Source of the DNA: Candidatus Obscuribacterales bacterium
GTDB taxonomy: Bacteria > Cyanobacteriota > Vampirovibrionia > Obscuribacterales > Obscuribacteraceae
Direction of reading: 5' to 3'
Assembly (NCBI GenBank): GCA_031292355.1
Contig: JARLHI010000057.1
Location: 124,001-188,000 of the forward strand
Length of the DNA stretch: 64,000 bases
Of the stretch, positions 43,784-48,563 are shown piece after piece (the stretch's first letter is position 1; every line of letters begins with the position of its first letter). A program made the translations under genes and the position numbers. A model generated the notes under the pieces. That model did not search any database. It saw nothing but the letters and a program-made list of their open reading frames with translations, and was not told the origin of the DNA.

Positions 43784-45178
43784 GTGAGTTGGGAAAATCA
43801 TCTGACCAGGGGCTCAATAGCACTGGCCAGGGCAGACTATGCTCTGGCACAGGACCAGCTTAATCAGGCTCTGACCGAAGTTAAGGCACAAAGACGCGCC
43901 TCAGACTCGCGTGTGTCTACCGTGTACAGTTTGCTCGCCCAAGCCTTTTATAGGCAGGGCGATTACAAAAAAGCGGTTCCGCTGCTCAAGCAAGCCATAG
44001 CGACGGATGACAGACACAACAACATGGACACTTCAAGCAAAGCTCGCGACTTGATTTGTCTGGCCGAGATCGCCAGACACGATGGCAATGTTGAAGAAGC
44101 AGCTGGGCACATCAACAAAGCAATTGAGAATTTGCAATATTTGCAACGCTCTCAAAATGGTTTCGGCGCTGAAGCAACCCATGCTCTCAGCGCATTATTC
44201 AGCAAAGTTTCGCTGGAGCGAAAGCTCGAACAAAAACAAAAATTGAACCAGATCGAGGTTATTAAAAATCAGTTTCGTGAATTTCTTGTTGAAGCCGAAA
44301 AAACGAACAATCAGTCAGCAACATCATCAGCCGTAAGCGCTTCTGGCAGTCAGGCCTATTTCGGCACAGAAACTCAATCGCCCGACAACTACTGGCTTGA
44401 AAATTACGAAAGTGGCACCGCCCTTGGTGCTTCACGAGAAGAGTCCAAGCTGGAATCGTCCTATGTCTTGCTGCTTGAAGCGCTGCACACAGCTGCTGTC
44501 AATTTTTCACTGCAAGATACGCGCTTCATTTGCAGTTTAACCGCTTTAGCGCAAACCACTACCCGCCTCGACCTCGTCGAGCTAACCGAAGAAATATTGA
44601 GGTACTGCCAGAAGCTCGCAGTGTCCCAGAAAGTTGAACGACAAGGGATGATCGAAATCAAACTGGCTTTTGCAGATTTTTACAGCTATCTCTGCGACTT
44701 CAAAACATCTGCAATTTATTTCAGTCAAGCCGCAGCCTTAATTGAGCAGCCCAAGACGCAAGAAGAAGCAGAGAAAGAGGATACCTCAAGTACCTTCAAT
44801 TACAACAATGCTCTGTCATTTACGGCAAGCTTTGTCGCCATGATGCAAAAATCAGATCTGCACCAATCGGCAAAACTGCTGACGCAGCAGGGTCTAGAAT
44901 GCGAAGAGTCGCAAGACTGGAAACAAGCAACAGCGTTATTCGAAAAAGCGTTGCTGTTGTTGGAGCAGATTTTTCCGTACGACCACTTAGAATTTGCGCA
45001 GTTGTTGCATTTTATGACAGCTTCACTGCTTGGAGAAGGTCGCGTTGACGAAGCGGTCACCGCACGCACGAGAGCAGAAGAAATAGAAGAAGCTGCGCAA
45101 AATTCCGGGCAAATTCTTGAGTCTCGCTTGAGACGATTGCCTAAAATCAAAGTCGAAGTGTTTAACGAAAATCGGTGA
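43784..45178 (+). CDS. Cytoplasmic TPR-repeat protein
   Basis: 464 residues from the GTG at 43784, which follows GGAGGGG by seven bases; the longer open frame would begin inside the upstream terminator. No signal peptide. TPR-like helical pairs occur in the N-terminal part (ALARADYALAQDQLNQALTE, then STVYSLLAQAFYRQGDYKKA and DLICLAEIARHDGNVEEAAG) and in the C-terminal part (LLTQQGLECEESQDWKQATA; LEFAQLLHFMTASLLGEGRV). The middle is a less regular helical region. Likely a protein-protein scaffold of unknown partner. It overlaps the convergent TetR gene by 17 bases. Confidence 0.7.
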   Translation: MSWENHLTRGSIALARADYALAQDQLNQALTEVKAQRRASDSRVSTVYSLLAQAFYRQGDYKKAVPLLKQAIATDDRHNNMDTSSKARDLICLAEIARHDGNVEEAAGHINKAIENLQYLQRSQNGFGAEATHALSALFSKVSLERKLEQKQKLNQIEVIKNQFREFLVEAEKTNNQSATSSAVSASGSQAYFGTETQSPDNYWLENYESGTALGASREESKLESSYVLLLEALHTAAVNFSLQDTRFICSLTALAQTTTRLDLVELTEEILRYCQKLAVSQKVERQGMIEIKLAFADFYSYLCDFKTSAIYFSQAAALIEQPKTQEEAEKEDTSSTFNYNNALSFTASFVAMMQKSDLHQSAKLLTQQGLECEESQDWKQATALFEKALLLLEQIFPYDHLEFAQLLHFMTASLLGEGRVDEAVTARTRAEEIEEAAQNSGQILESRLRRLPKIKVEVFNENR

Positions 45179-45761
45179 TGCTTTTGGCACCGCTGAAAAA
45201 CAAGGACGCAGCCAAATCAGCGAAGTGCTGCGGGCTGAGCGTACCGTTCTTGTCGAACCAGATATATGTCCAGTTGATTGAACCGAGCAAAGACATGGCG
45301 AGGCCAGTTCTTGTCGGTTCATTTAAATCTGGTCGGATTTCTGCCACGAGATCACGAAAAATTTTGATGACACCACGCTCAGTATCACGTATGAGGCTTT
45401 GCTGATCACTGGGCAACCAATGCAAATCATTGAGCAGCACCACATGCTTGGCGTGCGAGCTCACATAGATTTCCATAAAAGAACGCAGCAAAGCCCTCAG
45501 CCGGATCTCCGGTTCGGTGTCCTTTTGAAGAACCTCATTGGCTGTCTTAAGCAATAGCTGAACATGGCTTTGCAGCATGTCGAAGAGAAGCGCTTCTTTT
45601 GATGTGTAATAGTGGTAGATCAGTGCCTTTGACGTATGGCAAAATTGAGCAATAGTGGCCATGGATGTGCCAGCAAAGCCCTTATCCGCAAACAGAACGG
45701 CAGCCTGGTCAAGAATTAATTGCTGCTTTTCTCCATAGTCGTCGGCGCGGGGTCTGCCCAT
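45162..45761 (-). CDS. TetR-family transcriptional regulator
   Basis: 199 residues. The N-terminal helix-turn-helix domain reads ILDQAAVLFADKGFAGTSMA, then TIAQFCHTSKALIYHYYTSK and EALLFDML, a classic TetR pattern. The C-terminal helical domain would bind a ligand, possibly an acyl-CoA or aromatic compound, which is not known. Its ATG overlaps the stop codon of the diiron oxygenase gene (TAATG), so the two are co-transcribed and probably auto-regulated through the dyad at 46898-46933. It overlaps the convergent TPR gene by 17 bases at the 3' end. Confidence 0.9.
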   Translation of the reverse strand: MGRPRADDYGEKQQLILDQAAVLFADKGFAGTSMATIAQFCHTSKALIYHYYTSKEALLFDMLQSHVQLLLKTANEVLQKDTEPEIRLRALLRSFMEIYVSSHAKHVVLLNDLHWLPSDQQSLIRDTERGVIKIFRDLVAEIRPDLNEPTRTGLAMSLLGSINWTYIWFDKNGTLSPQHFADLAASLFFSGAKSITDFR

Positions 45762-46858
45762 TAAAATATGGGGATGATCTTGCCGATCTCGAAATCAACA
45801 GTTTCACCGTCAATACCAATTTCTGGCAACGCGGGAAATTTGATGCCATAAGGATCAAGCGTCTGCTTCATGCGCAATACAGCAGTTCGCCAGTTCTTTT
45901 TACGCTGTTCATGACTGAGAACACCAAAACCTGCTGACCGCGCTGACTCTTCAAGCAATCTTTGCGAGGCAATAAAAGTCGGTGGCAACTTCCAAAATTC
46001 AGCTGGTGGCTCGTATAAAACACCAGAGAGGAAAATGAAGCCTGCTCGAATCTGTTTAGTGATCATATCTTTGTCGTCTTGCGACAAATTCGGCAAGATG
46101 TTTTTCAGGACAGCAAGACAAATACTTAGATGGCGACCTTCATCACGAGCAATGTGCCGAAAAGCTTCTTTAAAAAGAGGAATGTCGGTAGTTTCTTGCA
46201 TACTCGCAAACAAAGTAGACGAAGCCACTTCGCCGAACAGAAAAGAGCTGAATAAAATTGGGATTTCGTATTCTTCAATAGCGTTCTTAAAGCCATCCCA
46301 ATAGCGTGCGCCATTGAAATAAAGCCATTCGATATTGTTTCTCGCCAGCTTACCAAGAGGCGTCGTTGGCTCGAATTGCAATGGACCACCCGGTGTCAGC
46401 ATACGAATAGCGCGTCCACAAACTTCTTCGTGATTCATTTCGTCGCGCGTCACTGAAAAGAAGCATTTGCGAATGGCATCTTCTTCTTTTTTCTCATACG
46501 CATGAATCATCGCTCTTGCAAAAACCGCTGGTCCCGAAGCATCAAAAACAGAAAGCAACGACCACCAGTAGGAAATCGCATAACGCTGATCCTGCGTCAA
46601 TGCATCCACATCGAAACTATCCCAGGGCAATTCATTTGGTGACCAGCCTGGCTCTCTAGAAGCTTCATAGATTTCCATCAACCTTGGCGTTTGAACATTC
46701 CATTCGATTGGGAAAATGTTCATCTTATTGGCGATTTCAGGCGCTTCAATGACGTCTTTCAACAATACTTCTGGATTGGGCATCTCGCCATACAATGTAG
46801 GCGGTGGAATCAGATCATCAGCAAGAGATTGCTCGAGAGATTGTTTTGTCGTGGCCAT
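45761..46858 (-). CDS. Ferritin-like diiron oxygenase (AurF-like)
   Basis: 365 residues, no membrane segment. The helical core carries two ExxH motifs expected for a carboxylate-bridged diiron site: RDEMNHEEVC (about 140-149) and IARDEGRHLSICL (about 240-252), with further acidic ligands likely in MIHAYEKKEED and FLFGEVASSTLF. The layout is that of the ferritin-like superfamily and most resembles proteins annotated as aminobenzoate oxygenase (AurF) or related diiron N- or C-oxygenases. Substrate cannot be read from the sequence. It forms an operon with a TetR regulator, and a long dyad operator lies 40 bases upstream. Family level call only. Confidence 0.7.
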   Translation of the reverse strand: MATTKQSLEQSLADDLIPPPTLYGEMPNPEVLLKDVIEAPEIANKMNIFPIEWNVQTPRLMEIYEASREPGWSPNELPWDSFDVDALTQDQRYAISYWWSLLSVFDASGPAVFARAMIHAYEKKEEDAIRKCFFSVTRDEMNHEEVCGRAIRMLTPGGPLQFEPTTPLGKLARNNIEWLYFNGARYWDGFKNAIEEYEIPILFSSFLFGEVASSTLFASMQETTDIPLFKEAFRHIARDEGRHLSICLAVLKNILPNLSQDDKDMITKQIRAGFIFLSGVLYEPPAEFWKLPPTFIASQRLLEESARSAGFGVLSHEQRKKNWRTAVLRMKQTLDPYGIKFPALPEIGIDGETVDFEIGKIIPIF

Positions 46859-46897
46859 GTGCGCCTCATCTTCGTAAGTGACTGAGTAGAAGCCGGG

Positions 46898-46933
46898 ATA
46901 ATTAGTTAACCGTCCGGCCGGCTAATTAATATT
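46898..46933. promoter_or_regulatory. Probable TetR operator upstream of the diiron oxygenase-tetR operon
   Basis: TTAACCGTCC (46906-46915) faces GGCCGGCTAA (46916-46925), giving TTAnCCGnCCGGnCGGnTAA, with eight of ten base pairs symmetric. The symmetry continues outward in AT-rich flanks, so about 14 of 18 positions match over 36 bases. Position 40 bases before the start and the linked tetR gene support autoregulation. Confidence 0.7.
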
Positions 46934-46992
46934 ATCAGATAAAACCAGGCTTGAGCAAACAAAACGCCTGCCCGATCATTAAAAAACGCTAT

Positions 46993-47789: not shown

Positions 47790-48563
47790 TTACTCGAGAG
47801 AGGAGATTGCTTGTTCGACGCGTTTGTGGAAGGCCGGACTCATATAACGCTCCACAATTTGCAGTCTCAAATCGCGTCCAAGCATAGCCGAATCAGAATT
47901 ATGCAATGCACCAAATTGGGCCCGACCGATTGCTTTTTTAGCCTCACCGAGAGAAACAGATTCGTTTTGCGCAATTGCCTGAGCAATTCGAAGAACCTGA
48001 GCCCGCAATGAGCCACTGTCAAAAAGATCGTCTATTAGTCCACGTCTGAGGGCTTCGTCACTATGAATGGTGCTTGCCGTGTACAACATTTGCTTAGCAA
48101 AAGCAGAACCAACAAGTGCCACCAATCGAGCAATTGACGCATCGTCAAGGATGATACCAAGTCGAGCAACTGGAATGCCAAATGTGGCATTCTTAGAGGC
48201 ATACCGCAAATCACAGGCAGAAGCGAGCAAGCACCCACCCCCGAAACATGGTCCCTGAATCATCGCAAGCACGGGTAACTCAAAACGCCAGACTGCATTC
48301 AAACAGTCTTCTATAGCCAGCCAGAATTCCATTGCGCTGTCGAAGTCATGAAGCTTTTGCAATTCGTGCAAATCCGCACCGGATGCAAAAGAATCCCCCT
48401 GCCCAGTCAAAACTATAACCCTTGCGCCTCGCCCTTTTAAGCGGTCCAGAACGCCCGGCAATTTCTGCCACATTTCAGTTGTAATCGCATTATGCGATTC
48501 CGGTCGATTTAGGGTGATGACACCAATGTTCTCTTCGAGTGAAGAAAGAATATGTTCAGCCAT
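47790..48563 (-). CDS. Enoyl-CoA hydratase/isomerase family protein
   Basis: 257 residues, the standard crotonase size. IGVITLNRPESHNAITTEMW opens the fold; the first oxyanion-hole segment is DSFASGADLHEL, the second is GPCFGGGCLLASACDLRYAS. The position usually held by the first catalytic Glu is in IQGPCFGGGC...; the second is RLGIILDDASI, where the common Glu or Asp of the second position appears as Asp (DD). It likely hydrates or isomerises an enoyl-CoA in beta-oxidation, matching other acyl-CoA genes in the window, though it is 15 kb from them. It follows the lnt-DUF192 pair on the same strand by 34 bases. Exact reaction not provable. Confidence 0.85.
   Translation of the reverse strand: MAEHILSSLEENIGVITLNRPESHNAITTEMWQKLPGVLDRLKGRGARVIVLTGQGDSFASGADLHELQKLHDFDSAMEFWLAIEDCLNAVWRFELPVLAMIQGPCFGGGCLLASACDLRYASKNATFGIPVARLGIILDDASIARLVALVGSAFAKQMLYTASTIHSDEALRRGLIDDLFDSGSLRAQVLRIAQAIAQNESVSLGEAKKAIGRAQFGALHNSDSAMLGRDLRLQIVERYMSPAFHKRVEQAISSLE

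Follow-up and report, generated by a model that had tools for sequence, protein, structure and literature searches.

A PaaR-like repressor and a conserved dyad accompany a diiron oxygenase that may stand in for PaaA in Obscuribacteraceae

The window analysed in this study, a stretch of 64,000 nucleotides from the 6.6-Mb genome of a Candidatus Obscuribacterales bacterium (contig JARLHI010000057.1, positions 124,001 to 188,000; genome G000), carries a two-gene operon that encodes a predicted diiron oxygenase and a TetR-family regulator and is preceded by a conserved dyad resembling the operator of PaaR. With a probability of roughly 60%, we consider the oxygenase to be a single-gene diiron enzyme with phenylacetyl-CoA or a closely related aryl-CoA as its substrate, able to take the place of PaaA and controlled by a PaaR-type repressor. 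In a widespread aromatic pathway, the key step is the epoxidation of the phenylacetyl-CoA ring by PaaABCDE. A 2026 survey recommends paaA and paaC as robust genomic markers and retained in its final set ligases co-localised with the epoxidase complex (PMC13186573). Should another diiron enzyme be able to replace PaaA, surveys relying on these two markers would miss or undercount such pathways. Furthermore, a gene annotated as hypothetical protein would gain a testable function, and the PaaR-like operator would be a direct handle on the inducer, hence on the substrate.

Both genes lie on the minus strand where the initial annotation had placed them, the oxygenase first, and its stop codon shares the sequence TAATG with the start codon of tetR (Table 1). 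Homologues of the oxygenase were found in 18 of 60 genomes, G000 included, every one belonging to the Obscuribacteraceae (Melainabacteria), and the other 17 proteins are 67-83% identical to that of the window. A TetR homologue lies next to the oxygenase in 17 of these 18 genomes, and the same 17 carry upstream of it a dyad core that matches the consensus TTrACCGACCGGTCGGTyAA at 16 or more of 20 positions. The comparison of the operator in related genomes, on whose outcome the initial annotation had made its claim depend, thus upheld the dyad next to homologous pairs in the family, and it did so in the wider sample described below. At the 18th locus (L018, genome G011) the dyad scored 11 and no TetR was detected at the threshold used; since the oxygenase of G011 (L018 and L100) is accompanied by neither, some other control must act on its promoter.

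A scan of named genomes yielded 52 oxygenase homologues, including loci from Burkholderia, Pandoraea, Sheuella, alphaproteobacteria and Binataceae. TetR matches were present in the fetched flank of 34 of them, 28 being strong and downstream and six weak (E 1e-9 to 1e-12) and upstream. The flanks of the other 18 gave no match; two of these (L113, L126) are on contigs ending within the gene or flank, and in L099, L101 and L102 a TetR gene lies just past the flank, heading the operon. A dyad core of at least 16/20 was found upstream of 30 of the 52 homologues, versus none at 555,325 other positions of those loci. Because the family loci served to derive the consensus and their contigs account for many of the 52 homologues, the independent support comes from the proteobacterial and the additional Obscuribacterales loci. 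Some of the misses have variant dyads, namely CTGACCGATCGGTCAG or one close to it in alphaproteobacteria, weaker dyads in Pandoraea, and in Sheuella a dyad that precedes the first gene of the operon. Related but different dyads with ACCAA- or ACCGA-type half-sites were seen upstream of the oxygenase in L117, L119, L123 and L128; they go with the weaker TetR matches located upstream, which gives the impression that operator and regulator have changed in parallel.

In the window, the dyad core TTAACCGTCCGGCCGGCTAA spans 20 bp (46906-46925, plus strand), 47 bp from the oxygenase ATG, and AT-rich arms extend it to about the limits given in Table 1. The long symmetric dyad described previously is present; its symmetry, earlier given as about 14 of 18 positions, came in our count to 8 of 10 pairs within the core and to 13 of 18 pairs once the arms were included. 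When the 134-bp intergenic region was shuffled 5000 times with dinucleotides preserved, 13/18 was reached in 18 cases and 8/10 in 256, so that the symmetry alone is only moderately unusual; we regard the dyad as real because it is conserved among homologues, not because of its symmetry. A -10-like hexamer was seen at 12 of 17 family loci, its end 15 nt ahead of the dyad centre, and a -35-like hexamer lies 16-18 nt upstream of it. The mean score of these promoter-like hexamers was 8.59 of 12, compared with 5.87 (standard deviation 0.29) at random positions, the observed value being favoured by the choice of the best offset; one family locus (L008) scored only 4, and a plain consensus promoter scan of the window did not report the GATAAT/TTTGCT pair. 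The transcription start predicted for the window, at about 46924, falls inside the dyad, and a bound repressor would consequently block the polymerase there. The oxygenase-TetR module is very probably self-regulated.

Table 1. Coordinates of the operon and its putative control elements in the window
Feature	Position	Strand	Basis
Diiron oxygenase gene (365 aa)	45761-46858	-	ORF; ferritin-like diiron fold in model
TetR-family repressor gene, PaaR-like (199 aa)	45162-45761	-	ORF; TetR_N and TetR_C_24 domains
Putative operator dyad with AT-rich arms	46898-46933	.	Sequence; conservation; likeness to PaaR operator
Putative -10 hexamer GATAAT	46931-46936	-	Adjoins operator core; position kept in 12/17 family loci
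Putative -35 hexamer TTTGCT	46954-46959	-	17-bp spacer; weak match, inferred

The regulator suggests a link of this module to phenylacetate metabolism. According to a review, the PaaR operator of Burkholderia cenocepacia is ACCGACCGGTCGGTT, as shown by reporter fusions, with binding confirmed by electrophoretic mobility shift assay, and PaaR is released by compound II, not compound I, of the review's scheme (PMC9493321). Because a title cited there names phenylacetyl-CoA as the effector of Thermus PaaR, we take these compounds to be phenylacetyl-CoA and phenylacetate, respectively. Counted by eye, 14 of the 15 positions of this operator agree with the family consensus of the dyad, and 12 agree with the window copy. 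The Burkholderia genome G061 holds two TetR matches to the window TetR, of which the better (38%) adjoins paaA, whose product scores 526 bits, and a dyad of this kind lies directly before paaA. When this Burkholderia PaaR was searched against G000, the window TetR came first (39%, E 1e-34; next E 3.9e-7), making the two proteins reciprocal best matches. In the oxygenase operon of G061, the leading TetR gene is likewise flanked by a dyad on either side, and another lies directly before the oxygenase. Judged from these comparisons, the window TetR is a PaaR-like regulator.

Its domains, TetR_N (55.9 bits, cut-off 24) and TetR_C_24 (67.2 bits, cut-off 26.4), form a pair that is not unique to PaaR. 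The structure model, with a predicted local distance difference test (pLDDT) score of 90, had 3ccy, PfmR, AibR, BkaR, KstR2 and others as nearest structures, and the AibR, FasR and FadR entries among the matches include acyl-CoA-bound ones. In contrast to PaaR, the window tetR and the oxygenase gene form one operon, and such an operator is not seen at the paa cluster. The promoter arrangement differs as well: the original PaaR paper describes a dual overlapping repeat, similar to the QacR operator, between -10 and -35 (PMC2770484), and the window dyad lies just after -10. A long TetR dyad such as that seen here is known from QacR, whose IR1 is bound by a pair of dimers, and two-dimer binding may apply here too; the PfmR site TACCGACCGNTNGGTN resembles the core of the window dyad. 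Both differ from the window TetR in effectors and regulons. The exact dyad pattern occurs only once in G000, and sites with up to three mismatches are fewer than for a reversed control, for which reasons a large regulon was rejected. The initial annotation had named a toxin as a conceivable inducer besides the substrate; nothing pointing to a toxin was found, no search having been aimed at toxins. In one relative, a near-perfect operator stands alone (L069, G035:C10:7244-7263), upstream of a leader-like ORF rich in aromatic residues and a putative DAHP synthase gene, as judged by eye.

Gene context in three lineages, together with the PaaR-like operator, points to a CoA-thioester of the phenylacetate type as the substrate of the oxygenase, for which the initial annotation had seen no identifiable one. 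Two alphaproteobacterial loci (L110 and L115) have the order paaG-paaI-paaK-oxygenase, with PaaG at 398 and 403 bits (cut-off 345), PaaK at 694 and 687 bits (cut-off 646) and PaaI at 159 bits in L110 (cut-off 119) and read from the ORF only in L115. PaaK is encoded directly upstream of the oxygenase in L114 and L125 (652 and 651 bits), and in L107 the end of PaaK, cut by the contig, precedes it. In none of these five loci was there a TetR within the fetched flank or a dyad scoring at least 16, which suggests that the oxygenase has its own regulator only where it is apart from paaK. The betaproteobacterial neighbours, in slightly varying sets, are MaoC, a PaaG-like hydratase, OB_ChsH2, a thiolase, a PaaK-like ligase and a BenC/MmoC-type reductase. 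The latter lies within about 300 nt downstream of the oxygenase in 8 of 56 loci (L099, L101, L102, L103, L124, L129, L130, L132), and L106 and L108 hold weaker copies on the opposite strand. In Vitreoscilla, oxygenase and reductase come after paaD, paaE and paaZ; a dyad precedes the oxygenase, and paaE is followed by a homologue of the window TetR.

Another explanation is that the oxygenase serves a side pathway for some other acyl-CoA, either an arylacetyl-CoA of hydroxylated or indolic type or an acyl-CoA that is alicyclic or branched, and that the regulator reflects CoA-thioester chemistry in general and not phenylacetyl-CoA in particular. Burkholderia G061 and Vitreoscilla possess paa epoxidase genes alongside the oxygenase, the Variovorax clusters hold an indolepyruvate ferredoxin oxidoreductase and an amino-acid-type ABC transporter in addition, the ligase of the betaproteobacteria, at 261 and 247 bits with a PaaK cut-off of 646, is no more than PaaK-like, and the nearest TetR structures include regulators responding to isovaleryl-CoA and fatty acyl-CoA. 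However, the alphaproteobacterial PaaK, PaaG and PaaI neighbours exceed their curated cut-offs, and the evidence from the family genomes leads to the same paa cluster, so that we regard a different acyl-CoA as rather unlikely.

All 36 family genomes examined have at least part of a paa cluster, composed of PaaK, EthD, crotonases and PaaF-like and PaaG-like proteins, with PaaK missing from it in G006 and G018. The G000 cluster (C83:95761-99120, L166) is on a separate contig from the operon and comprises PaaF-like and PaaG-like genes and a PaaK of 623 bits (cut-off 646), but no PaaA. A PaaA-like gene was identified in 15 of the 36 genomes; it heads the cluster in 14 of these and lies at a separate contig end in G034. 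The oxygenase alone was present in 17 genomes, the PaaA-like gene alone in 14, both in one (G012) and neither in four, all of which are less than 90% complete (Fisher p 2e-5; median p 6e-4 with one genome per genus). Restricting the count to the 24 genomes of at least 90% completeness gave 16, 7, 1 and 0 genomes, respectively (p 2e-5). In a tree built from the paa proteins (35 rows), six changes of the label are required, at least four of them forced by supported branches, and four independent pairs could be formed after dropping rows with neither gene, all four being opposite in nearly every pairing. Two genera, g7 and g22, each hold both states. Such exclusion is the pattern expected of two enzymes that would do the same job.

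As to the PaaA-like gene itself, it scores 131 bits against the PaaA model (cut-off 280), and no PaaB, PaaC, PaaD or PaaE was recognised beside it where it heads the cluster (L167, L169, L179, L180 and others); it appears to be a reduced form of the epoxidase. The G000 cluster also lacks a third crotonase found in the clusters of most relatives, which is related to 6-oxocyclohexene-carbonyl-CoA hydratase and MenB.

Several observations weigh against the oxygenase being a stand-in for PaaA, in addition to the epoxidase genes of Burkholderia G061 and Vitreoscilla. The sign test on four pairs cannot reach p 0.05. Matches to PF05138, the PaaA/PaaC domain, comprised strong, PaaA-like ones with E <= 1.2e-39 and a weak group, often in pairs, with E values of about 1e-20 to 1e-27, a division made post hoc and supported by tblastn identity (73-100% to the L167 gene) and by place. 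The weak group occurs in 14 of the 36 family genomes, 11 with the oxygenase and three without it, and could supply the PaaA function in the genomes holding it; if any PF05138 match is counted, 12 of 18 oxygenase genomes are positive and the exclusion disappears. This weakens the stand-in function outside G000, which has none of that group: no PF05138 match was found in G000 at E <= 0.001, and six of the 18 oxygenase genomes, G000 among them, are without any match to this domain. Moreover, G000 has no match to FAD_binding_6, the domain of the usual reductases; eight of 14 control genomes were positive for it, and nine of the 18 oxygenase genomes have none. Finally, no dyad of at least 16 was detected in 408,184 bases at the family paa clusters, and a shared operator there was rejected; the oxygenase itself may be the paa target of the TetR. 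In the six of 14 genomes inspected, the weak PF05138 genes (L176, L177, L178, L181, L182, L183) are about 25-30% identical to the PaaA-like gene and all on a contig other than that of the paa cluster; by eye, a small ferredoxin-like ORF adjoins three of the six. Of two partial weak matches in G003, one is the PaaA-like gene itself, truncated at a contig end.

Given these points, the exclusion could be accidental, a product of lineage history or of incomplete or contaminated assemblies, with an oxygenase unlinked to paa in the Obscuribacteraceae. The data stem from a single family with labels clustered on the tree and four genomes with neither gene, three relatives have the oxygenase on contigs shorter than 6 kb, the weak PF05138 group is commoner with the oxygenase (11/18) than without it (3/18), and operon and paa cluster lie on different contigs with no common operator. 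Nevertheless, the swaps within g7 and g22, the number of changes that supported branches force and the lack of any genome with neither gene among the 24 that are at least 90% complete speak against this, and two proteobacterial lineages independently show a paa-type context. We consider an accident quite improbable.

The oxygenase is predicted to be a ferritin-like diiron protein. Its two ExxH motifs, noted previously, are E140xxH143 and E240xxH243, and both are invariant in 43 aligned homologues, as are all candidate metal ligands (D106, E140, H143, E210, E240 and H243; 43/43). The pattern of carboxylate, ExxH, carboxylate, ExxH is that of the ferritin-like diiron superfamily, and the model (pLDDT 79) adopts the corresponding four-helix bundle. 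A generic Rubrerythrin model was matched just above its cut-off. Specific families were not: the oxygenase reached 24.3 bits against AurF (PF11583; Pfam cut-off 29.6), the best of five homologues scanned being L103 with 29.5, and 14.1 bits against the R2-like ligand-binding oxidase (R2lox; NF006200, NCBIfam cut-off 194). AurF, R2lox and ribonucleotide reductase R2 were rejected as family names since the scores are below the curated cut-offs, and PaaA was rejected since PF05138 is absent among the Pfam matches of the oxygenase up to E 0.1. BoxB, a benzoyl-CoA epoxidase, was not among its matches at E <= 0.1 in NCBIfam, which probably includes a BoxB model. A sequence search for a relative of known structure gave none that was convincing. 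Oxygenase homologues are currently annotated as hypothetical proteins, and the open-licence literature searched contained no description of such an oxygenase.

Structural comparison with AurF and R2-like oxidases, as proposed in the initial annotation, revealed likeness at the fold level to R2-like proteins and the AurF-related VlmB. VlmB, R2lox and an aldehyde-deformylating oxygenase tied as nearest folds at Z 16-17. These tied folds and the weak AurF and R2 matches might indicate an N-oxygenase, a ligand oxidase or a radical protein regulated by its own small-molecule substrate. AurF, VlmB and R2lox indeed share the R2-type ferritin-like fold with the oxygenase and are, as solved structures, nearest to it, but they differ from it in gene context, with identities of about 12-14% in the structure alignments, and the scores stay under the curated cut-offs for AurF, R2 and R2lox. 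The fold does not give the function, and the gene contexts are acyl-CoA pathways, which makes a function of the AurF, VlmB or R2lox kind highly improbable.

If the oxygenase does act on an aryl-CoA in place of PaaA, the following scheme can be put forward. Without inducer, one or two TetR dimers would sit on the dyad over the predicted transcription start and block RNA polymerase. The paa ligase would make the aryl-CoA, which would bind the TetR and free the operator, and oxygenase and repressor would then be produced together. The oxygenase would activate the ring for the PaaG/PaaF-type enzymes of the separate G000 paa cluster. The operon, the dyad and its conservation, the likeness of operator and regulator to PaaR and the gene contexts can be read in the sequences, whereas the binding to DNA, the ligand of the TetR and the substrate, reaction and electron donor of the oxygenase are inferences.

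Like PaaABCDE, the oxygenase is ferritin-like and diiron and is tied to PaaK/PaaG-type genes, and it would act in the same pathway. Unlike PaaABCDE, it is outside PF05138, is encoded by a single gene and has no PaaB, PaaC, PaaD or PaaE partner, and a BenC/MmoC-type reductase lies beside it only in the betaproteobacterial clusters. More generally, it might represent an unnamed aromatic-CoA oxygenase, a single-gene enzyme of R2 fold outside PaaA/PaaC that repeatedly replaced PaaA and moved between Proteobacteria and Melainabacteria, with a portable PaaR-type repressor and operator when outside a paa operon. Because of the weak PF05138 group, we put this broader proposal forward only tentatively.

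In a quick tree, the family oxygenases and some relatives labelled otherwise in the records form one supported group, next to betaproteobacterial genes and inside the proteobacterial diversity. This position suggests one early transfer followed by spread or loss, provisionally given the long branches. Viral homologues of the oxygenase were not detected at the sensitivity used.

A crotonase-family gene (47790-48563, minus strand) lies about 0.9 kb upstream of the oxygenase in the window, separated from it by a 237-aa ORF without family match. Since the dyad sits between this ORF and the oxygenase, the crotonase-family gene is probably outside the oxygenase operon.

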